A stretch of 64,000 bases of DNA. Source: Pirellula sp. (lineage in GTDB: Bacteria > Planctomycetota > Planctomycetia > Pirellulales > PNKZ01). The DNA is taken from assembly GCA_013822735.1 (NCBI GenBank), contig PNKZ01000012.1, positions 124,001 to 188,000 of the forward strand, read 5' to 3'. The stretch's first letter is position 1, and each line of letters opens with the position of its first letter. The notes below the pieces were generated by a model. The model worked only from the letters and a program-made list of their open reading frames with translations, had not been told where the DNA came from and searched no databases. Both the position numbers and the translations under genes were made by a program. Positions 7,344-17,652 of this stretch are shown piece after piece.

Positions 7344-8219
7344 CTAAGTGTTCGCCGAAGGCTCGTAGGTTTCCGGCTCGGAATAAATATCCGACGCCGC
7401 TTCCACGACGCCGTAATCTTCGACGGGAGGCAACGTCCCCATGGGCACTGCTTGCGAGGGGTGCGAGGGAAAGAACGATTCGAGATGCATGGTGCCGTCG
7501 TATTGCTCGGTGAGCGCCGTGCAGTTCTCAACCCAGTCGCCCGTATTGAGGTAGCGCATTTCGTCGCTACCGAATATGCCCGGCGTATGAATGTGGCCGC
7601 AGATCACGCCGGTGCATCCTTGTTTGCGAGCGTACGAAAACAGATTTTGCTCGAAGTGGCTCATGAAGCGCACTCCGGTCTTTACGAAGTTCTTCAACTT
7701 CGCACAAAACGAATAGGGGCTACGGCCCGGCGTCGGACGTGCTCGGCGATACCACCAGTTGGCCGAAAGCAGAGCCTCATAGGCAAACGTCACGGCGACC
7801 GAGAGCCATTGGCACTTTGTTTCGACGACGTCAAACTTGTCGCCGTGCAACAACAGGTACCGGCGCCCGTCCTGAGCCTCGAAGACAAACTCGTCTTCGA
7901 TCCGCAGCTTGACGCCCGAGTTTTGAATCATCTTCAACACTTCGCCGTTGCGAAGAAAAGCGTCGTGGTTGCCGGGTGTGTAGTAAATTTGGGTGCCGGC
8001 ACGCGACAAATCAAACAAGCGATTCATCAGCCGCGTGTAAAGTTGCGGCCAGTACCAACCAGCGGAGAGTTTCCAACCGTCGAAAAAGTCACCGAGCACA
8101 TAGAGTCGGTCAGGCCGAATCTGCTCGAGGAACTGCATAAAGTTCTCGGTCTGCGCGAATCGGCAGCCCAAGTGAATGTCGCTGATGAACAGGCTGCGGA
8201 CACGTCGTTGATACGGCAT
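7344..8219 (-). CDS. LpxH-like UDP-2,3-diacylglucosamine diphosphatase family metallophosphoesterase
   Basis: A 291-residue calcineurin-like phosphoesterase with the full metal-binding set in order: SDIHLG, GDFFDGW, PGNHDAF, LLHGDKFD and CGHIHTPG. The spacing and the NTGDWVEN motif fit the COG2908/LpxH-like group, which hydrolyses UDP-2,3-diacylglucosamine or related nucleotide-linked lipids. It begins at an ATG with an AGGAAG ribosome-binding site about eight bases upstream. The next upstream gene on the same strand is a GT4 glycosyltransferase 61 bases away, a pairing that supports a lipid or envelope glycoconjugate role. True LpxH function in lipid A synthesis is not proven; a lipid-specific paralogue is equally possible. 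Confidence 0.82.
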   Translation of the reverse strand: MPYQRRVRSLFISDIHLGCRFAQTENFMQFLEQIRPDRLYVLGDFFDGWKLSAGWYWPQLYTRLMNRLFDLSRAGTQIYYTPGNHDAFLRNGEVLKMIQNSGVKLRIEDEFVFEAQDGRRYLLLHGDKFDVVETKCQWLSVAVTFAYEALLSANWWYRRARPTPGRSPYSFCAKLKNFVKTGVRFMSHFEQNLFSYARKQGCTGVICGHIHTPGIFGSDEMRYLNTGDWVENCTALTEQYDGTMHLESFFPSHPSQAVPMGTLPPVEDYGVVEAASDIYSEPETYEPSANT

Positions 8220-8280
8220 GACTAGTTCTTCCTGTTAAAGTACCGAGGTCGTGGGAGAATCCGTTATCCCGCGCAATCAC

Positions 8281-9543
8281 TTAGGGCGTTGAGGCGGCGA
8301 CACCCACTTTAGATTTTCGACGCTGCGGAAACACGGCCGCCGTCCGAAAAGCCCAAGTGAGTGACGTCAGAACCGCGCGTGCGAGCCGGCGATCCTTTTC
8401 GGCACGCTCGCTTCCGACGCGATGCTCCAGAATCGTTCTGCGATAATGCTCGCGGACTTTCTCCGCCGAGCGATGCCAGTCCCAAGCTTCCGCTTGGCTT
8501 CGGCCGGCCGACGAAATACGCAACCGTTGCGCGTCGTCGGCCAAAAGTGAATTGACGAGGCCCGCCGCTTCGGTCGCATTGCCCGGCTGATAGAGCAGGG
8601 CGGTTTCCCCTTCTCGCACCAAGCTCGGAATGCCGCCGGCCCGCGGCGCGACGACCGGCAGACCGGACGCCATCGCTTCGAGTACGACGTTGCCCATCGT
8701 TTCCGTTTCGGATGCAAAGACGAACATGTCGGCTGCGGCGTAGGCGTCGGCTAATTCAGCGCCCGTCATATAGCCGACGAAATTCGTGCGATCGGCGGGA
8801 AACATTCGCTCCAATTGTTCACGTTGCGGCCCGTCGCCGACGATCGCCAGCCGCGCCCCGGGCACGCGTTGCAACATCTCGGCCAACAGCCCTACGCTCT
8901 TCTCCGGAGCAAGGCGCGAAACGGTGAGCAGCAGCGGTTCGTTCGGATGTCCCGCCGAAAGGCGCTTCCGCATCTCCGCTCGTCGACGATCGGGATGGAA
9001 CAAGCTCGCATCAACGGCCGGCGGCCAAAACTCAACGCGCTCGAACCCGCGACGTTGCAGATCCGATTGCATGATCGTGGAGACGGTCAGATTCGTGTCG
9101 GCGCAGTTGTGATAATCGCGCATCAACCACCATAACACGCGCGACAACGGCTTGATCAGCCCGTATCGTTTCACGAATTCGCCGTAGAGCGTGTGGAACG
9201 AAAACACGCACGGCAGATCAAGATCGGTGCGGCTCAGGATGTCGTAGCAGCGAAATCCGAAGGCGAACGGATTCAAGAAGTGAACGACGTCCGGCTGGAA
9301 CGAACGAAGCTCATCGACAAGCCTGCCGTCGGGCAGGCCGATGCGATATTCCGGATAAGCGGGGAACGGAAAACTACGAAACTCGACGATAGGAACCGGA
9401 GACTTGCGCTCCGACACGGCTTCCGGACAAACGACCAACACTTCATCGCCGCGTTCCAACAACTGACGAATCAAATTCATCGTGCGAATGACGACGCCGT
9501 CGACCTTGGGGAGGTACACTTCGGCAATGATCGCAATCCGCAT
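8281..9543 (-). CDS. GT4-family glycosyltransferase
   Basis: Starting at the ATG at 9543 the protein has 420 residues and opens with MRIAIIAEVYLPKVDGV, the typical first strand of a GT-B fold GT4 enzyme. GGTGAG lies about eight bases upstream. A longer reading frame to 9795 would overlap the methyltransferase by more than 200 bases and adds no recognisable sequence. The donor-binding C-terminal domain has PEKSVGLLAEML and the E-x7-E stretch ETETMGNVVLEAMASG. The family includes SqdX/MgtA-like lipid glycosyltransferases. Together with the LpxH-like gene it probably glycosylates a lipid or polyprenyl acceptor at the membrane; donor and acceptor are unknown. Confidence 0.85.
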   Translation of the reverse strand: MRIAIIAEVYLPKVDGVVIRTMNLIRQLLERGDEVLVVCPEAVSERKSPVPIVEFRSFPFPAYPEYRIGLPDGRLVDELRSFQPDVVHFLNPFAFGFRCYDILSRTDLDLPCVFSFHTLYGEFVKRYGLIKPLSRVLWWLMRDYHNCADTNLTVSTIMQSDLQRRGFERVEFWPPAVDASLFHPDRRRAEMRKRLSAGHPNEPLLLTVSRLAPEKSVGLLAEMLQRVPGARLAIVGDGPQREQLERMFPADRTNFVGYMTGAELADAYAAADMFVFASETETMGNVVLEAMASGLPVVAPRAGGIPSLVREGETALLYQPGNATEAAGLVNSLLADDAQRLRISSAGRSQAEAWDWHRSAEKVREHYRRTILEHRVGSERAEKDRRLARAVLTSLTWAFRTAAVFPQRRKSKVGVAASTP

Positions 9544-9578
9544 GCTTGATCTCACCAGGGTCCGTGTTGCTTCCGTTG

Positions 9579-10400
9579 CTAGTTGGGCGGTCGCCGCGCC
9601 AGGCCGACGGCTACGTGATGCTCGTCGCTTAGCGGGAAGACCAGCATGTTCAACATCGACTTCAACCAAGGCTTGGCGTTTTGCAGCCCGATAGCTTCGA
9701 TAAACGGCGTGAGCCAACCACCGTGATACGCAAACTCCATGAAGGCATCGAAGTCGGCGAACTCCAGCTTCGGTCGTGCTAGTTCCAACGAGCAAACTTC
9801 AAAGCCGTGACGCTGAAAGCAATCGGAGATCGCATTGCAATCTACGGGCGTCAGCAGATCGCGGGCTTCAAATTTTCTTCCCCGGCCCAAGAACCGCAGG
9901 AGCTTTGAGCGAGCCTTCTTCTGCAACGTCGGGTACGCGGAGCTCACGGCGCCGAGAAACGACCAGTAACCGCCCGGTTGCAGCTTGTTCCAAATTCGTG
10001 GCGCCAAGTGTTCCATCGGCACGAAGCCGGTGACGAAATGCGTGCTCACGAACCCAAACGATTCGTTGACGAAATGACCGTCGATCGCGGCGGCATCGTC
10101 AATGACCGCCTGTAGATCTGGAATGCGCCGCTTGGCGAAGTCGACCATCCGGGCCGACAGATCGAGCCCGAAGGGCTGAATTCCACGAGCGGATGCGTTG
10201 CGAAGTTTCTCGAGAAAAAGCCCCGTACCCATACCGAGGTCGAGAGCTTTTAAGGGAGTGTGTCCCGCGGCGAGCAATGCTTCGCGCTCAACATGCTCCA
10301 AAGCCAAATCCAACATGCGATTTGTAAGATCTTGGGCATCGAGGTCGTAGTGGGCGGCGATGACCTCGTCATACTGCCGTTGGATTGCGGCCGTGCTCAT
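9579..10400 (-). CDS. Class I SAM-dependent methyltransferase
   Basis: A 273-residue protein if started at the ATG at 10400 (MSTAAIQRQYDEVIAAHYDLDA). The SAM-binding motif I reads LKALDLGMGTGLFLEKL near residues 50-65. A motif-II-like acidic stretch (QAVIDDAAAIDGHF) follows. The C-terminal half is basic and hydrophobic, with no recognisable metal or radical-SAM motif. An in-frame start at 10631 is possible but adds unrelated-looking sequence. It leads the minus-strand arm that continues into the glycosyltransferase (35 bases) and the phosphoesterase. By context it may methylate a lipid or quinone-like head group; the substrate cannot be read from sequence. Confidence 0.75.
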   Translation of the reverse strand: MSTAAIQRQYDEVIAAHYDLDAQDLTNRMLDLALEHVEREALLAAGHTPLKALDLGMGTGLFLEKLRNASARGIQPFGLDLSARMVDFAKRRIPDLQAVIDDAAAIDGHFVNESFGFVSTHFVTGFVPMEHLAPRIWNKLQPGGYWSFLGAVSSAYPTLQKKARSKLLRFLGRGRKFEARDLLTPVDCNAISDCFQRHGFEVCSLELARPKLEFADFDAFMEFAYHGGWLTPFIEAIGLQNAKPWLKSMLNMLVFPLSDEHHVAVGLARRPPN

Positions 10401-10766
10401 GCCTATCTCGCAGTGGTGTGGGTCGAAAGACCGTTGCGGTAATTGACTGCCGACGCATCCTTGCGGCGTTGCCGCATGTTCACAACCTGTTCGTAGCTTG
10501 CTCTCAACGAGGCGTATATTAGGAGAGAATTGTAAGGCCCGTGTGATGCCCAGTAGAGGTTTTGATTCAATTGCAAAAGCTTGTGCAAAGCCGACTTTAC
10601 ATTTCTGCATCGGCTCCGGATAAGAGAACAAACGATGTGAATGTAGTGTGCATTACGTGTCGCTTCCCTACTTCGTCCGCTTCACAGCCAACATGTGATG
10701 CGAAGCGATTTACGATCGACGTGTTACGCCACGACCACGATCACTCTCGCGGCCAGCGGAGTCGGC
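10401..10766. other. Divergent intergenic region of the lipid-type cluster
   Basis: This stretch of 366 bases separates the methyltransferase (minus) from the GMC oxidoreductase (plus), so it must hold both promoters. An AT-rich TATATT lies at about 10514. I see no convincing -35/-10 pair, inverted repeat or RNA gene. An in-frame GTG/ATG at 10695-10698 could extend the GMC protein by about 24 residues. Confidence 0.4.
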
Positions 10767-12293
10767 ATGGAATACGATTTCGACGCGATCGTTATAGGTA
10801 GCGGTGCCGGCGGCGCGGCATTCGCCGGCCGCCTGGCCAAGGCGGGCAAAAGCGTGCTCGTCGTCGAACGCGGTGCGAATCCCCTGCAAAACCGGCCTAA
10901 TTCCCCCGATAGTTCGCCCATATCCGTTCTTCGCGACGAACGCGCGACGATGATCGACAAGCGTTGGTACGACGATCGCAAAATCGACGTCAACAACTCT
11001 GAAATGCGACTCTACATTGGAGGCATCGTCGGCGGAAGCACGGCGCTATTCGGCGGTGCGATGATGCGCCCCAGCGTCGACGACTTTCATCCCGGCCGAC
11101 GTTACGCCGATCGACTATCGCGGGAGCTTTGGGATTGGCCGGTCGCGTACGAAGAATTGGCTCCCTATTTCGCGCAAGCGGAGTCGCTCTACCATGTCGC
11201 TGCCGGCCCCGACGACGAGTATGGGCCGCTGGCGTCCCCAACGATCCGTCGCCAATCCGACCTGTTGCCGCTGGCGCCGATCAACGAACGAGTCGTCGCC
11301 GCAAATCGTTCCGCGGGATTACGGCCGTTTCGTCTGCCGTTGGCAATCGATGTACGACGTTGCGAACGCTGCGATGCGTGTGCGGGCTTCTTATGCCCCA
11401 ACGGTGCGCGTCGCTCGGCCGCACACATCTTGACTGAAGCTCGTGATAGCGGATCGCTCAATATTACCGAGTTCACGGAAGCGGAACGCCTCGAACGCAG
11501 TCCGGCCGGTCGCATCGACGGAGTCGTGCTGAAGAATCGCGGCGACGGTACGCGTCGCGTACTGCGCGGCCGCGTCGTAGCGTTGGCCGCAGGGGCGTTG
11601 GCTTCGCCGGCCATTGCGTTGCGTTCCGGCATCGAAGGCCCGCAGGTCGGCCGCAACTACATGATGCATTATTCTCCGATCGCGGTCGGCATCTTCCCGC
11701 AACCAACCGGTGCCGGGGAGACGTTTGTAAAACAGATCGGCTTCGCCGACTACTATTTCGGCACTCCGCAGCTGCCGGAGAAAATGGGGATCGTGCAATC
11801 GCTACCCGCCCCGGGCCCGCTCATGATGGCCAAGCTCGGACTCAAGCGTTGGCCGGCAGGCGTTCGTAATTTTCTCCGCAATCGCATGCTGCTGCTCGCG
11901 GGAATCGTGGAGGATTTGCCGAACCCCGATAATCGAGTGTTCCTCGGCGACGGCGACAAAATCGCGTTGCGACACGATTTCTCCGAATATGATCGCACGC
12001 GCGGCAAAGCCCTAGGACGCGAAATGCGCCGGATTTTGCGCCGGTCGGGAGCCGTATTTCAATCAAGCCGTTCGTTTCCATCGCGCGAACACGTGGCACA
12101 TCAATGCGGCACGTTGCGGTTTGGTCGTGACCCACGTCACGCCGCAGCCGACCGCGACGGTCGTCTATTTGGCCACGAGAATTTGTTCGTCGTCGATGGA
12201 AGCGTTTTGCCGACGTCGACCGGAGTCGGACCCTCGCTCACCATTACCGCCTTGGCGCTCCGCTGCGCCGACGCGGCTCTCGCCGGAATGTAA
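10767..12293 (+). CDS. GMC-family oxidoreductase (alcohol oxidase-like)
   Basis: A 508-residue flavoprotein. The FAD-binding Rossmann motif VIGSGAGGAAFAGRLAKAG lies at residues 8-26. A cysteine group RCERCDACAGFLCPNGAR matches the C-x2-C-x2-C-x4-CP.GA.. pattern seen in long-chain-alcohol and cholesterol-oxidase-like GMC proteins. The C-terminus has the GMC signature AHQCGTLRFGRDPR and VVDGSVLPTSTGVGPSLTI. The expected reaction is FAD-dependent oxidation of an alcohol to an aldehyde or ketone. I chose the ATG at 10767, which has CGGAG about six bases upstream and places the Rossmann motif normally. It heads the plus-strand arm of the cluster, 34 bases before psd. Confidence 0.85.
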   Translation: MEYDFDAIVIGSGAGGAAFAGRLAKAGKSVLVVERGANPLQNRPNSPDSSPISVLRDERATMIDKRWYDDRKIDVNNSEMRLYIGGIVGGSTALFGGAMMRPSVDDFHPGRRYADRLSRELWDWPVAYEELAPYFAQAESLYHVAAGPDDEYGPLASPTIRRQSDLLPLAPINERVVAANRSAGLRPFRLPLAIDVRRCERCDACAGFLCPNGARRSAAHILTEARDSGSLNITEFTEAERLERSPAGRIDGVVLKNRGDGTRRVLRGRVVALAAGALASPAIALRSGIEGPQVGRNYMMHYSPIAVGIFPQPTGAGETFVKQIGFADYYFGTPQLPEKMGIVQSLPAPGPLMMAKLGLKRWPAGVRNFLRNRMLLLAGIVEDLPNPDNRVFLGDGDKIALRHDFSEYDRTRGKALGREMRRILRRSGAVFQSSRSFPSREHVAHQCGTLRFGRDPRHAAADRDGRLFGHENLFVVDGSVLPTSTGVGPSLTITALALRCADAALAGM

Positions 12294-12327
12294 TGCAACG
12301 AAGCGGGCAGGAGAATCAAAGGCTACC

Positions 12328-13260
12328 GTGAAAAGAGACATGCAAGTTCGCATCGAACAGTTTCGCTCAGCCCGACGCATCCACGGCGGCACGATGAAAA
12401 TGTGCGCCGCGGCAATCGGAGTAAAGCTGGCCAAGGTGCCTATTCCTTCGCGTCGTCTCCGCACTTGGGTCTATCGCAAAGTGTACGGCGGCAAGTACAT
12501 GGCATTGCAAGAAAACCAATTAGAGCAGCCCCTCGGAGAGTTCCGGTCGCTCAACGCGCTTTTCACGCGCGGCGTGCGCGCCGAATGTCGCCCTCTGTCA
12601 ACAGCGCCGGGTCGGTTGCTTTGTCCATGCGATTCGACGGTGCAAGACGTCGGCAAGCTCGACCAAGATCGACTGCTCACTGTGAAGGGAACTGAGTACA
12701 CGCTTGATTCGCTGCTGGCCGGAGTCGATGCGCAGCCGTTCGCGGACGGACGATTCGCGATCTTCTTTCTCTCGCCTGCCGATTGCCACCGAGTGTTCTG
12801 CCCTTACGACGCAGAACTTGTGGAAATGACGCACGTTCCGGGACGTCGGTTGCTGGTACATCCTCCCTACCAGCGCAAAGAGTTCCCCGTATTTTCGCTC
12901 AACGAACGGGTCATTTTGCGATTTCGCTCGGCGATCGGATCGTTCGTGTTGGTGATGGTCGCCGGTTGGGGCGTCGGCAACATTTCCTATCCGTACGCGA
13001 CCACCTTCAAGCCGAAGAAACGCAAGATCACCCGCTACGTCTTGCCGGTGCCGCGGCGCTTCGAGGCCGGCGATTGGGTCGCAACGTTCGGCCTGGGCTC
13101 GACGGTGATTTTGATCACGGAACCGCGTGCCGAGGCCGTGTCGTATCTCAAGCGCGATCAAACGATGCGCTACGGCAACCCGGCATTTCTGTTTCCAACG
13201 GCGGCCAACGACAATGCTGTGGTGGTAGACACCGCGAGTGACGAGGGAGAAATCGCGTGA
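12328..13260 (+). CDS. psd: Phosphatidylserine decarboxylase (pyruvoyl enzyme)
   Basis: About 310 residues. The self-cleavage site LGST is present (FGLGSTVILI, about residue 265); the serine becomes the pyruvoyl group. The other triad members are likely Asp in PCDSTVQD and His in SPADCHRV. The stretch VPGRRLLVHPPYQRKEFPVFSLNERV matches the family's VPG...NP...NERV region in overall pattern. The enzyme converts phosphatidylserine to phosphatidylethanolamine at the inner membrane. The GTG at 12328 has AAAGG five bases upstream; an ATG at 12340 is the alternative. The stop overlaps the next start (GTGA), so translation is probably coupled to the FAD oxidoreductase. Its location outside a pssA context suggests a dedicated head-group step. 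Confidence 0.85.
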   Translation: MKRDMQVRIEQFRSARRIHGGTMKMCAAAIGVKLAKVPIPSRRLRTWVYRKVYGGKYMALQENQLEQPLGEFRSLNALFTRGVRAECRPLSTAPGRLLCPCDSTVQDVGKLDQDRLLTVKGTEYTLDSLLAGVDAQPFADGRFAIFFLSPADCHRVFCPYDAELVEMTHVPGRRLLVHPPYQRKEFPVFSLNERVILRFRSAIGSFVLVMVAGWGVGNISYPYATTFKPKKRKITRYVLPVPRRFEAGDWVATFGLGSTVILITEPRAEAVSYLKRDQTMRYGNPAFLFPTAANDNAVVVDTASDEGEIA

Positions 13261-15020
13261 TCGCCGAAACCAACACTATGTTCCGGGATCTTCCTCGTCG
13301 TCAGATTTCGGTGACGGCGGCGCGACTTCCCACGTCCACAACGACGTACGTCATCGACTTTGGTGATCGTTGGAGCGAGGAACTCGCACGAGCGGGCCTC
13401 GGCGTAGCAACGCTCCGGCCTAAGGACCTGCCTCTAGAGTTACCCCAAACGTCGCAACTGCTGATTTTCTTGCCGCGTCCCTCGCAGAAATCCGAAGAAT
13501 TACTTCAGCGATGCCTGCAATTGGCTCGGCGAACCGCAGAGTGCCGCGTTTGCCTCATCGGCAGTTATCGAACGCATCTGGGCGACCGCAGTTCCCGCGA
13601 TTTCGAAGAGCTGTGGCTGCGGCGGTTTCAGGCAGTCGTCGGCCGGAAGTGTATGCTGCTGCGAACAGGCACGATCATTCGAAGTCGACCGACGACATGG
13701 CAATGCCTCGCGGCGCCTTTTTATCCATTGCTGCCGACGTCGTGGCGTAGTTGCTACGTTTCGTTCGCGGAAGTCTTGAGTACGGCTCGCGATTCGATCA
13801 CATCGTCGAATCGACGTTTATCGAGTCAAACGCTTTTGGGTTTGCATCGCACCGTGGCCGAGACGTGGCGGGAAATGGTTTCGCAAAACCTTGTCGCTCG
13901 AGCGATGGTTGTTTTTGCGAAAGTCCTCTCCGTCTTGTGCATCGGGCCGCTGTCGGCTTGGTGCGTAGCCGGTCTTCGCCGACTGCTCCCAAACGCCGCT
14001 ACGCCTTTTCAGGGAACCTTGGAGCCCAAATCCGTCGCGGAATTGTTGAGCCTTACGCAATCGGCCAATCGTTCGAATATCATCCTCGCCGGCTACAACA
14101 CGGGAGTCGTGCACTTCGGCTGGAAGTTTCCGGGCAAGACCGTCGTCAAAACGATCGGTTGCGGTCGGCGGATTCGGGTGCGTGACGACTATGTCGATGT
14201 CGACGCGGGCGTCACGTTAAAAAGGCTCATCGGCGAATTGGCTCGAAACGGCCGTGAGCTGTACGCCGTGCCCAATTATTCTTACGTGAGTATTGGTACA
14301 GCGTACTTTGTACCCATTCACGGTTCGGGCCACGTCGTGGCGACGCTCGGCGACACGATCGAAAAGGTGCTCGCTTACGACATGTGTGTCGGCCGGTTCG
14401 TGGTATTACGCCGCGGCACGGCGGCGTTCGCCGAATCGATGTACGCCCCCGACTCCAATCTCTTGGCACTACGACTGCGACTGCGAACCCGTCCGCAAAC
14501 GCGCTACTTCATGATTCGCAGCGAGTTGAATTCGCCCGATGCGGCCGCCGTTTGGAGTTCCTTTGGCGACGAAAACGCTTCGAACATCGAACTGCGCAAG
14601 TCTTCGGCGGGCGCAACAGCGGTGCAGGTCGCAAAGTTCTACGGGTCGGCGTCGGCGGGAGGCGCCGATGTGATGGAAGTTCCTCGCGACTCAATCGGCC
14701 GGATCTGGGATCGGCTCGAAGAGAATCGCGTGACCTCGTATCTGTTTCACGCCCTCACGCGTCGGTTTGCCTTTCACGTCGAACTGTTTCTCGATCGGCA
14801 TGAGTTCGAGACGTTCTGGCAGTCGCACCGCGAGTTGCCGCTGCTCAAGTTGCAGCTGAGATTCGCTCGTCGCGACGACATCCCGTGTTCTCCGATCGGC
14901 TCGCGCGATTGCGTCGCGATCGATCTCTTCATGCGTCGCAGCGCCTCGACGACATTTCTCAAGTTCATGCAGGAACAATTGCCTCATGCTCGATTCAATC
15001 GCGGCAAACACAGCATGTGA
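13257..15020 (+). CDS. FAD-binding oxidoreductase (VAO/PCMH-like) with extra N-terminal domain
   Basis: A 587-residue protein that overlaps psd by four bases. Residues about 260-450 resemble an FAD_binding_4 (PCMH) domain. They include an AGYNTGVVHFGWKFPGKTVV-like first motif and a YVDVDAGVTLKRLIGELARNG strand-helix. The FAD loop region reads VSIGTAYFVPIHGSGHVVAT and is followed by EKVLAYD. The first ~200 residues look like a worn Rossmann or epimerase-like domain (for example LLIFLPRPSQKSEELL, AECRVCLIGSYRTHLGD) without an intact glycine-rich motif. A hydrophobic segment near 220-245 may touch the membrane. Relatives oxidise sugar lactones, decaprenyl-phospho-sugars or sterol-like lipids. 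The substrate is unknown; neighbours suggest a lipid. Confidence 0.65.
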   Translation: MIAETNTMFRDLPRRQISVTAARLPTSTTTYVIDFGDRWSEELARAGLGVATLRPKDLPLELPQTSQLLIFLPRPSQKSEELLQRCLQLARRTAECRVCLIGSYRTHLGDRSSRDFEELWLRRFQAVVGRKCMLLRTGTIIRSRPTTWQCLAAPFYPLLPTSWRSCYVSFAEVLSTARDSITSSNRRLSSQTLLGLHRTVAETWREMVSQNLVARAMVVFAKVLSVLCIGPLSAWCVAGLRRLLPNAATPFQGTLEPKSVAELLSLTQSANRSNIILAGYNTGVVHFGWKFPGKTVVKTIGCGRRIRVRDDYVDVDAGVTLKRLIGELARNGRELYAVPNYSYVSIGTAYFVPIHGSGHVVATLGDTIEKVLAYDMCVGRFVVLRRGTAAFAESMYAPDSNLLALRLRLRTRPQTRYFMIRSELNSPDAAAVWSSFGDENASNIELRKSSAGATAVQVAKFYGSASAGGADVMEVPRDSIGRIWDRLEENRVTSYLFHALTRRFAFHVELFLDRHEFETFWQSHRELPLLKLQLRFARRDDIPCSPIGSRDCVAIDLFMRRSASTTFLKFMQEQLPHARFNRGKHSM

Positions 15021-17106
15021 CCTATCGCCCGAAGTTCGGGCGGCGCTGGACACGTGCGACGAAATCATCCGCCGAAGATTGCCGAATCTGTTTCGGCTGT
15101 ACCTCAACCCGTACGTCGCGCAAGCGTGCTATTGCCTGGGCGAGGCCGTTTGCGAAGCTTGGCCGGCCGCCGTCGGACCGCAACAGGTATTTCTCGCCAA
15201 CAGTTCGGAAGAGGCCCTTAGCGGCGCGGTAAAGCTGGCGCGCTACGACCGCTCGAAGATGGGACTGGCCACCGGCGGAGTGCTGCATGATGCGGTAGGA
15301 GCGCTAGAGCACTTCGCGGGAACGAAAGTTAATGAGCGCAACCGGCTGACGTTCCTACCGGGCATCGCGACGACGGAAGACGTCGAGGTCGTAATCGGGC
15401 AGTATGTCGCACGTCGTCCGCGGCCGGGTTTCGTCGCCATCTCCGCCTCCGCCCTCGATGATCTCGATTCTGCAACCCTCTCCGGAATGTCCGAAGTTTC
15501 CGCACAGCCGGATCGACCGTTGTTGATCGTTACCGTGAATCGCCGAAAACTCTTCCAGCGAGGCAACGTGCATGAACAAGCATGGCGAAAGATTAAGCCC
15601 GATATCGTCGTGTGCGACGAATCATTCACCGATCACGGCGTGCCGTTTGGCGCGTTCATCGCTCCGCCGCACCTGTACGCGCATTGGAACAACCGCCGCA
15701 CGGCCACGTTTCACTCCACGACCTATCAGCCTAACACCGTGTCGTCCTTGCACTTCATGAACGTCCTGCGACGTTCGGAGCCGGAATTCATATTGCGACA
15801 CCGGGAAATGCTGCAGCGGATCGAAGACGATCTGTCGACGCGCCGCGCGACGTTTCGCAAACGATACAGTCCGTCACTGGGAAAAATGATCGACCGAGTC
15901 GGATTGGATCAGGAAACGCAACGTGCCGACGGACACGAGATTCATTCCGGCGAGCGGCGACTTTTCGACGCCGTGGCCGGCGTGGCCTGCAGCATTCGCG
16001 GCCACAATCCGTCGACATACGCGGCGGAGATCCGACAAACCGGGTCGCCGATCGAGTGTCGCGAAGAATTCGAGCGCAGGCTGCAAGAATTAACGGGTTT
16101 GGCCAACGTACTCCCGGCCGTGAGCGGTGCCTCGGCCGTCGAGCAAGCGTTGAAACTCGGACTAATCGCGGCATTCCCGCGGACGCATGTGCTCGCGCTC
16201 GAGGGGGGGTACGGCGGCAAGACGCTTTTCGCGCTCACTGCGACGGCGAAGCCTGCGCTCAAGTCCGGCTTAGCACCCTTGTATCCGAACGTAACGTTCG
16301 TCGATCCGAAGGCTCCGGATGCCGTGGCCCGCATCGAGGCGCTCTGCCGTGAGAAGCCGGTCGGCGTCATTCAAACCGAACTCGTACAAGGGGTCGGCGG
16401 CGTGCGCGAAGTACCTCGCGAAGTGCTGGACTGTTTGGCGCGGATGCGGAGCGAACATGGCTGCTTATTGCTCGTCGACGAAGTGCAGACCGGCGTCTTT
16501 CGAACCGGTCCGTTCGTCCGCTCGACCGCCCTGGACCTACAGCCAGACTTGCTGACAATCGGCAAAGGCATCTCCGATATGATGTTTCCGTTTGGGTTGA
16601 CCCTGTACGGAGACGTCGTGGCCGACAGGTTGTCCGCGTGTGGAAGTACCTTTCCGCAAAGCGCCCAAGATCGACACGGCTACGAACTCGGCTACCGAAC
16701 GGCTCTCAACGTGCTCCGCATAGCCGACGTAACGAACCTGCAACAGCGGGTCGAAGATGTCGGTCATGAGTTTATCGAAGAGCTGAACCATAAATTAGCA
16801 GGCTGCCGCAACGTGGCGGCCGTGCGCGGCTACGGAATGCTCGTGGGCATCGAGTTAGAAGCCCGCCGCTTTCCGCGTCGCCAGTTGAAGAAGCAACTGC
16901 TGCAATTAGCGGCGCTGGCGATGCTCGATCACCCTCACTTTCCCGTCATCGTCGGCTTTTGTCAGTATGAGCCGAACGTTCTTAAGTTGACGCCCCCACT
17001 GTCGATGAGCAGTGCCGAAGCTCGCGACGTCGCGGCCACCATTGGCGACGTGCTACGCCGGTCGCCGTTGCGATGGGCCGCGGCGGCCATCCGCCGCGGT
17101 TCATAG
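14986..17106 (+). CDS. Tandem two-module class-III aminotransferase fusion
   Basis: A 706-residue protein, well over the usual ~430. The C-terminal module (about 330-700) is a complete class-III aminotransferase: SGASAVEQALKLG, LVDEVQTG for the PLP-pyridine Asp, and TIGKGIS with the Schiff-base lysine at about residue 527. The N-terminal module repeats the same order in eroded form (LANSSEEALSGAVKLAR, then KPDIVVCDESFTDHGVPFGAF near 203-222). There the catalytic lysine position is not lysine, so this half is probably inactive and structural or substrate-binding. The start overlaps the oxidoreductase by 35 bases with AGGA upstream. It probably transfers an amino group to an aldehyde or keto lipid made by the neighbouring oxidases; that is inference. 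Confidence 0.78.
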   Translation: MLDSIAANTACDLSPEVRAALDTCDEIIRRRLPNLFRLYLNPYVAQACYCLGEAVCEAWPAAVGPQQVFLANSSEEALSGAVKLARYDRSKMGLATGGVLHDAVGALEHFAGTKVNERNRLTFLPGIATTEDVEVVIGQYVARRPRPGFVAISASALDDLDSATLSGMSEVSAQPDRPLLIVTVNRRKLFQRGNVHEQAWRKIKPDIVVCDESFTDHGVPFGAFIAPPHLYAHWNNRRTATFHSTTYQPNTVSSLHFMNVLRRSEPEFILRHREMLQRIEDDLSTRRATFRKRYSPSLGKMIDRVGLDQETQRADGHEIHSGERRLFDAVAGVACSIRGHNPSTYAAEIRQTGSPIECREEFERRLQELTGLANVLPAVSGASAVEQALKLGLIAAFPRTHVLALEGGYGGKTLFALTATAKPALKSGLAPLYPNVTFVDPKAPDAVARIEALCREKPVGVIQTELVQGVGGVREVPREVLDCLARMRSEHGCLLLVDEVQTGVFRTGPFVRSTALDLQPDLLTIGKGISDMMFPFGLTLYGDVVADRLSACGSTFPQSAQDRHGYELGYRTALNVLRIADVTNLQQRVEDVGHEFIEELNHKLAGCRNVAAVRGYGMLVGIELEARRFPRRQLKKQLLQLAALAMLDHPHFPVIVGFCQYEPNVLKLTPPLSMSSAEARDVAATIGDVLRRSPLRWAAAAIRRGS

Positions 17107-17157
17107 CCGCGGCGTGCTACGATCAAACCCTTGAGTTGAATCCCGAGTGCTGCATCC

Positions 17158-17652
17158 ATGAGCCTTCTTAACGCCGATTTCTCCGAACTTTATCGCCGCC
17201 ATCTCTGTCGGCATTCGCAGTTCGGCATCAACGTTCTGCATCTTGTCGCCGTTGTCGGCATCTATATCTCGCTCTTGGCTCTCTTGCTCAAGCTCCCTGC
17301 TGCGCCGTGGATTATCGGCGTATTGCTGACGGCCTATCTCGCCGTGTTGGCGAAAAATGTTCCGGCGTTCGTGATGCTGCTCGTCGCCGTCGTGATCGCG
17401 GCGCTTCTCGGCGTGACGCTGCTGCTGCCCGCTGCTCCCATTTGGTTGCACCTACTATTGCTCGTCGGCTGGCACCGCTTTCAAGTATGGAACCATCGGA
17501 TTTATCACAACCATTTCGACATGAGCGAGTTTCAAGGTAAGTATCGCAAGGGGCCGGCACTGTTCGTGATGCTCGCGGTTTACGAATTGCCGATACTCCT
17601 CAATTACTTTCTTGCGCACCGCCTACGTAGTGCGGCCGTGAACGAAGCATAG
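17158..17652 (+). CDS. Small His-rich four-helix membrane protein, possibly DUF962/Mpo1-like
   Basis: A 164-residue protein with about four membrane helices (roughly 27-45, 50-68, 70-90 and 130-150). Histidines lie where helices meet the cytoplasm: YRRHLCRHSQFGINVLH near the N-terminus and GWHRFQVWNHRIYHNHF after helix three. This layout resembles the DUF962/Mpo1 family, in which yeast Mpo1 is a lipid alpha-oxidation dioxygenase, but the match is loose. The closing segment KGPALFVML fits that family's ...RPAL... only approximately. It follows the aminotransferase by 51 bases on the same strand and probably ends the lipid-type operon. Confidence 0.6.
   Translation: MSLLNADFSELYRRHLCRHSQFGINVLHLVAVVGIYISLLALLLKLPAAPWIIGVLLTAYLAVLAKNVPAFVMLLVAVVIAALLGVTLLLPAAPIWLHLLLLVGWHRFQVWNHRIYHNHFDMSEFQGKYRKGPALFVMLAVYELPILLNYFLAHRLRSAAVNEA

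Follow-up and report, generated by a model that had tools for sequence, protein, structure and literature searches.

How can an aminotransferase work when half of its chain has lost the catalytic lysine? The question is raised by one gene in a 64,000-nucleotide stretch of a Pirellula sp. genome (assembly GCA_013822735.1, contig PNKZ01000012.1, positions 124,001 to 188,000; the window), where an uninterrupted forward-strand open reading frame (ORF) at 14986-17106, from ATG to stop, encodes 706 residues, exactly as given in a preliminary description made from the sequence alone. That description read the class-III aminotransferase motif order twice along the chain, placed DEVQTG and the Schiff-base lysine in the C-terminal half (C half), noted the absence of this lysine from the N-terminal half (N half) and proposed an internal pseudo-dimer. 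Fold-type-I enzymes that use pyridoxal 5'-phosphate (PLP) are typically dimers with shared active sites, and to our knowledge few asymmetric ones are known, glycine decarboxylase and serine palmitoyltransferase. Here we argue, at a probability of about four in five, that the protein is a class-III aminotransferase whose dimer was fused into one chain and then made asymmetric.

Active-site residues are divided between the halves

In ordinary class-III enzymes each subunit contributes to its partner's site. In YgjG, Lys300 holds PLP, Asp271 binds the PLP nitrogen and the phosphate is contacted by Thr332 of the other subunit (PMC4244111). In a T. roseum transaminase, the partner subunit supplies Thr323, Tyr324 and F89, a residue of the pocket, and dimerisation was inferred by its authors to be indispensable (PMC6502798), while the sites of human ornithine aminotransferase are built from both monomers (PMC13327489).

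We aligned 30 distinct members of the family, 29 of them complete and the window's own included, drawn from 30 of 34 matches in the bacterial class (G715, G703, G570 and G691 were left out). Merging by identity over the last 500 residues had reduced 43 sequences to these 30; L037 stops at a contig edge and enters N-half counts only, and the truncated locus L014 was excluded. As controls we used six ordinary class-III enzymes of the window's genome (L048-L053), aligned with both halves of six of the 30 members and compared column by column. In all six controls, the lysine, aspartate, glutamate, stacking aromatic and lent threonine stood together on one chain. In the six N halves, the lysine, aspartate and glutamate were altered in every case and the aromatic in five, with the threonine retained in all six; the six C halves showed the reverse. 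Unlike in the controls, a lent threonine was not encountered here in the same domain as the Schiff-base lysine.

The full alignment gave the same division. The lysine column of the N half holds Glu in 28 members, Asp in two and Lys in none, so the missing lysine, correctly noted at the outset, is not a chance loss in one sequence or a residue conserved in homologues. Alignment with the controls puts T183 in the aspartate column of the N half, and no equivalent of DEVQTG was found there (DE[VI][QMA] matched at that place in 0 of 29 complete members); the motif order is therefore complete in the C half and only partly repeated in the N half. What the N half does keep is the segment around the lent threonine, in which F242-H-S-T-T and Q-P-N are invariant (30/30). 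In the C half, K527, D498 and E465 are each present in 29/29, confirming the DEVQTG motif and lysine as located, and the lent-threonine column holds Arg, Ser, Gly, Asp and others, never Thr (0/29). Looser patterns need the alignment to be read correctly: a Lys-near-PD pattern matches in 2 of 29 N halves, yet Lys is absent from the aligned column (0/30), and a Thr pattern matches in 3 of 29 C halves, yet Thr is absent from its column.

A second element follows the same division. Residues 33-46 of the N half align to a class-III loop that is shortened in the C half, and the stretch from GH to the phosphate-binding SG measures 38-41 residues in C halves of the family (30 rows) versus 47-77 in the six controls, so the interface-loop region of the C half is also shortened. 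We propose a role for residues 33-46 because of their analogy with F89*, the residue supplied by the partner subunit in the T. roseum enzyme (PMC6502798).

Fold of the two halves

Searched separately, the halves behaved differently. The C half alone matched Pfam Aminotran_3 (PF00202) with E = 4.5e-39 and 134.7 bits (cut-off 30.5), and among solved structures the closest to it in sequence are those of acetylornithine aminotransferase (1vef) and PigE (4ppm). In the full-chain model (mean predicted local distance difference test, pLDDT, 84.9, with the range over five models starting at 77.7; predicted template-modelling score, pTM, 0.89) the C half superposed on 4ppm_A with VIA Z 39.7 and a root-mean-square deviation (rmsd) of 3.3 over 424 residues. 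No named class-III subfamily fits, because all 25 NCBIfam families listed (the best 25 of 67 matched, including equivalogs of the argD and bioA type) score below their cut-offs, the top one, argD, reaching 166.9 bits against 410. A Pfam scan of the full chain (E up to 1) returned Aminotran_3 and a chance-level holin match only, with PF00202 the sole PLP family and no match to the P-protein family or to that of serine palmitoyltransferase.

The N half alone reached only 20.6 bits against Aminotran_3 (E = 2.1e-4), under the cut-off, although it matched PigE 4ppm at E = 1e-6 and a 13-member N-half profile matched 2eh6 at E = 2e-5. Its structure model (residues 20-292, mean pLDDT 84.4) gave 648 Foldseek matches in the PDB at E ≤ 0.001, and the 50 listed of these are class-III-type PLP enzymes, some of them serving as fusion scaffolds. 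Both structure models and the profiles were built from 13 of the 30 members. Superposition on 9qc2_C (VIA Z 18.3, rmsd 3.0, 226 residues) covered the range 72-345 of a 461-residue chain, so the N half corresponds to the large PLP domain only; as modelled, it is without the N-terminal segment and the small domain. The predicted fold is thus that of a class-III large domain and not a different one, while the claim of a twofold motif order fails for the small domain as well as for DEVQTG. Kinship of the two halves is suggested by the match of each, in sequence and in model, to class III.

Comparison with known PLP enzymes

Class-III aminotransferases (PF00202; for example 1vef, YgjG 4uox and ornithine aminotransferase) resemble the C half in fold and in own-site PLP residues, and their large-domain fold is like that of the N half. 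Their chains normally consist of a single domain that bears both the lysine and the lent threonine, whereas here these two residues lie on different halves. The nearest parallel in layout is the glycine decarboxylase P-protein (GLDC), in which one chain likewise combines an N half devoid of the lysine with an active C half and which is presumed to be a fused dimer, a layout that one paper calls unusual among fold-type-I enzymes (PMC7259800). GLDC belongs to another fold-type-I family, exceeds 1000 residues and has Gln at the dead lysine site; the present protein is class III, has 706 residues and Glu at that site, and its dead half lacks the small domain. Serine palmitoyltransferase LCB1/LCB2 is an asymmetric fold-type-I dimer in which LCB1 has no lysine, with one active site as the working hypothesis (PMC3794620), but it consists of two separate chains, belongs to the alpha-oxoamine synthase family and catalyses a different reaction.

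PigE of the prodigiosin pathway (PDB 4ppm) is a long protein with a C-terminal class-III domain and is among the best matches of both halves. Its N-terminal region resembles acyl-acyl-carrier-protein reductases (PMC8341465), unlike the class-III fold predicted for the N half here, and the NCBIfam PigE model scored 156.9 bits against a cut-off of 850 over query residues 272-626 only, placing the protein outside that family. A limited search of the open-access literature found no class-III pseudo-dimer and no tandem or fused class-III aminotransferase. On that search, the layout is already known from glycine decarboxylase, in another family, and its class-III version is apparently new.

Distribution of the family

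A pattern-based scan of 84,980 species genomes found 12 loci, all under planctomycete titles save L004 ('Bacterium'); the protein is whole in eleven of them, while L014 has the C half alone. In each of two 392-genome samples of the phylum, one queried with the protein and the other with the N-half profile, the matches were the window's genome and a single further genome of its class. Among 397 genomes of the class, the N half was found in 34 and the C half in 35 (the latter at E 1e-75); the halves therefore occur together, the odd genome (G513) agreeing in frame length and contig number with L014, a truncated remnant. These genome searches scored the best few candidates per genome. Among the 397 no free N half was seen, nor, at E 1e-75, a single-domain protein closely related to the C half; in G468 the two halves lie on separate contigs. 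The distribution is patchy: at E 1e-60 nothing matched in three further genomes from the window's genus or in three from its family.

Frames of 693-788 residues were found in 27 of 29 complete members. The other two, L031 and L032, read longer (1067 and 1175 residues), and a natural fusion with the upstream FAD (flavin adenine dinucleotide) oxidase was rejected because the additional residues come from reading the FAD-oxidase gene out of frame. At L014 (7938-9694) the locus is decayed: it retains the C half only (368 residues), the N half and the upstream operon genes are gone and the downstream gene matches in part, and we rejected it as a free C half or an ancestor of the family. The last 500 residues of L006, titled Candidatus Kuenenia stuttgartiensis, are identical to those of L023 of the window's class, and its title may be wrong.

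Operon setting

The gene lies in a conserved planctomycete operon, including a linked methyltransferase gene, at window positions 9579-17652 (Table 1). The recurring order is GMC oxidoreductase, phosphatidylserine decarboxylase, FAD oxidase, aminotransferase gene and a small, weakly Mpo1-like protein, with counts taken over 12 full-length loci (L003-L013 and L015, the stretches of L003 and L008 being short); among these, L010 carries the homologue of Singulisphaera acidiphila. The FAD-oxidase ORF, which shares 35 bases with the aminotransferase ORF, also precedes it in 30/30 short loci (L016-L045). The first ~200 residues of the FAD oxidase (window 13257-13856) have no Pfam match above chance in six members, and a dehydrogenase-like domain in its first 200-300 residues was unsupported in the same six, with chance-level Pfam matches only. 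Promoter and terminator scans came out near shuffle level and were not used.

Table 1. Features of the aminotransferase gene and its operon, in window coordinates
Feature	Positions	Strand	Support
Whole gene, 706-residue asymmetric tandem class-III aminotransferase (proposed)	14986..17106	+	ORF, translation, Pfam, 29 other distinct aligned members (28 complete)
N half, residues 20-292, putative decayed large PLP domain	15043..15861	+	Model pLDDT 84.4, VIA Z 18.3
Residues 33-46 (PNLFRLYLNPYVAQ), interface loop, probably lent to the C-half site	15082..15123	+	P33, N34, R37, P42 30/30; role by analogy
D211-E212, E212 at the Schiff-base lysine position of the N half	15616..15621	+	E 28, D 2, K 0 of 30
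FHSTTYQPN (242-250), T246 the candidate threonine lent to the partner's PLP phosphate	15709..15735	+	30/30; column is T in six controls
C half, residues 293-706, complete class-III chain with own-site PLP contacts	15862..17103	+	Pfam, VIA Z 39.7
E465, equivalent of E243 of YgjG	16378..16380	+	29/29
DEVQTG (498-503), D498 the partner of the PLP ring nitrogen	16477..16494	+	D498 29/29; DE[VI]QTG 29/29
K527, Schiff-base lysine	16564..16566	+	29/29
Residues 555-571, lent-threonine motif lost from the C half, D562 in the Thr column	16648..16698	+	Thr 0/29
Methyltransferase gene, linked, on either side of the operon by locus	9579..10631	-	10/12 loci
GMC oxidoreductase gene (ORF as listed)	10695..12293	+	PF00732, PF05199 above cut-off; 10/12 loci
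Phosphatidylserine decarboxylase gene (ORF as listed; true start probably later)	12121..13260	+	PF02666 140.9 bits; 10/12 loci
FAD-oxidase gene, upstream	13257..15020	+	PF01565 E 2.3e-5, 24.5 bits, just under cut-off 26.4; 12/12 loci
Small conserved protein, weakly Mpo1-like	17158..17652	+	PF06127 E 0.036, below cut-off; downstream in 12/12 loci

The window's genome has a second phosphatidylserine decarboxylase (L047, G000:C2:261851-262363), so the operon copy may be dedicated. Beside the operon, window 7344-9795 holds a lipid-type glycosyltransferase and an LpxH-like phosphoesterase, neighbours whose sequences suggest a glycolipid setting. The glycosyltransferase is nearest a phosphatidylglycerol-glycosylating family (the N-acetylglucosaminyl phosphatidylglycerol synthase model), although at 143.3 of 480 bits it is well below the cut-off, and a glycosyltransferase lies near the aminotransferase gene in 5 of 12 full-length loci. 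As a tentative proposal, with the odds somewhat against it, the operon could be a lipid or headgroup amination pathway.

Discussion

The halves carry complementary parts of one class-III site, which favours an internal pseudo-dimer, as the preliminary description had supposed; such a division of active-site residues is expected of a pseudo-dimer but not of an ordinary homodimer. The fold of the N half as modelled and, from the alignment, the residue split and its conservation are the firm part of this reading, and the split is explained by selection on one composite site. The C half would hold PLP on K527 with the contacts that a subunit gives to its own site, and the N half would be a decayed large-domain copy, retained as the supplier of the second subunit's lent parts. 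T246 would be the lent threonine for the PLP phosphate of the C-half site, and the loop 33-46, including R37 and Y39, would by analogy probably be lent at the substrate entrance. Each chain would then have one active site beside a dead pseudo-site.

Several observations weigh against this account. The N half retains phosphate-loop parts of its own (N72, E76, K83 and R86, each 30/30) and one of the six compared N halves retains the aromatic at the stacking position, so its pocket may have some other use. When the two halves were compared directly, profile against profile, no relationship between them emerged (probability 1%). The arrangement of the halves as in a class-III dimer, with both partners in the same chain and no exchange between chains, is an inference that we draw from the full-chain model. 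The substrate is a guess: a carbonyl produced by the FAD or GMC oxidoreductase of the operon might be aminated on a lipid or headgroup precursor, which we consider possible but at less than even odds.

Among the other explanations, the one that survives best, although we think it rather unlikely, makes the N half a second functional site in itself, such as one for non-covalently bound PLP, an amino donor or the substrate. It draws on the conservation of D211, E212 and S213 (28/30 each), R37 and H243 (30/30 each) and on a proposal that the half of glycine decarboxylase without the lysine binds PLP non-covalently (PMC7259800). However, the lysine, aspartate and glutamate of the PLP site are altered in all six N halves compared, and the elements that hold much of the conservation (FHSTT.QPN and the 33-46 loop) are ones that the C half would be expected to borrow. 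A domain-swapped dimer, in which each C half is completed by the N half of the partner chain, giving two half-and-half sites, fits the residue split equally well; we judge it improbable, although the overall confidence of the single-chain model is a weak argument against it. Slimmer still are the chances of an ordinary class-III homodimer made by the C halves of two chains, with the N half an appended decayed domain for docking or stability. In its favour, both sequence and fold mark the C half as a complete class-III chain, and homodimers are the norm for class-III enzymes (PMC4244111, PMC13327489), but the C half is without the lent threonine and its interface region is shortened while the N half retains both, and we disfavour this explanation because the loss from the C half of what its twin would need stays unexplained. 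An assembly artefact, chance fusion or pseudogene, for which the truncated remnant L014 might speak, is contradicted by the relatives (29 complete members including the window's own) and was rejected as next to impossible.

The fused, asymmetric dimer therefore remains our preferred reading, and it allows a bolder extension that we regard as unlikely: the dead half may be more than a scaffold, with R37, N41-P42, D211-E212-S213 and H243 forming a second substrate-gripping site that would pass the substrate, perhaps an anionic lipid headgroup, to the C-half site, in an operon that would make an undescribed aminated planctomycete membrane lipid.

No description of the operon was found in the open-access papers searched, and the analysis points to a conserved and apparently uncharacterised planctomycete operon. 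To the asymmetric PLP enzymes it adds a class-III case whose Schiff-base lysine sits on one half of the chain and whose lent threonine sits on the other, so that the catalytic contribution of each subunit could be mutated separately within one polypeptide.

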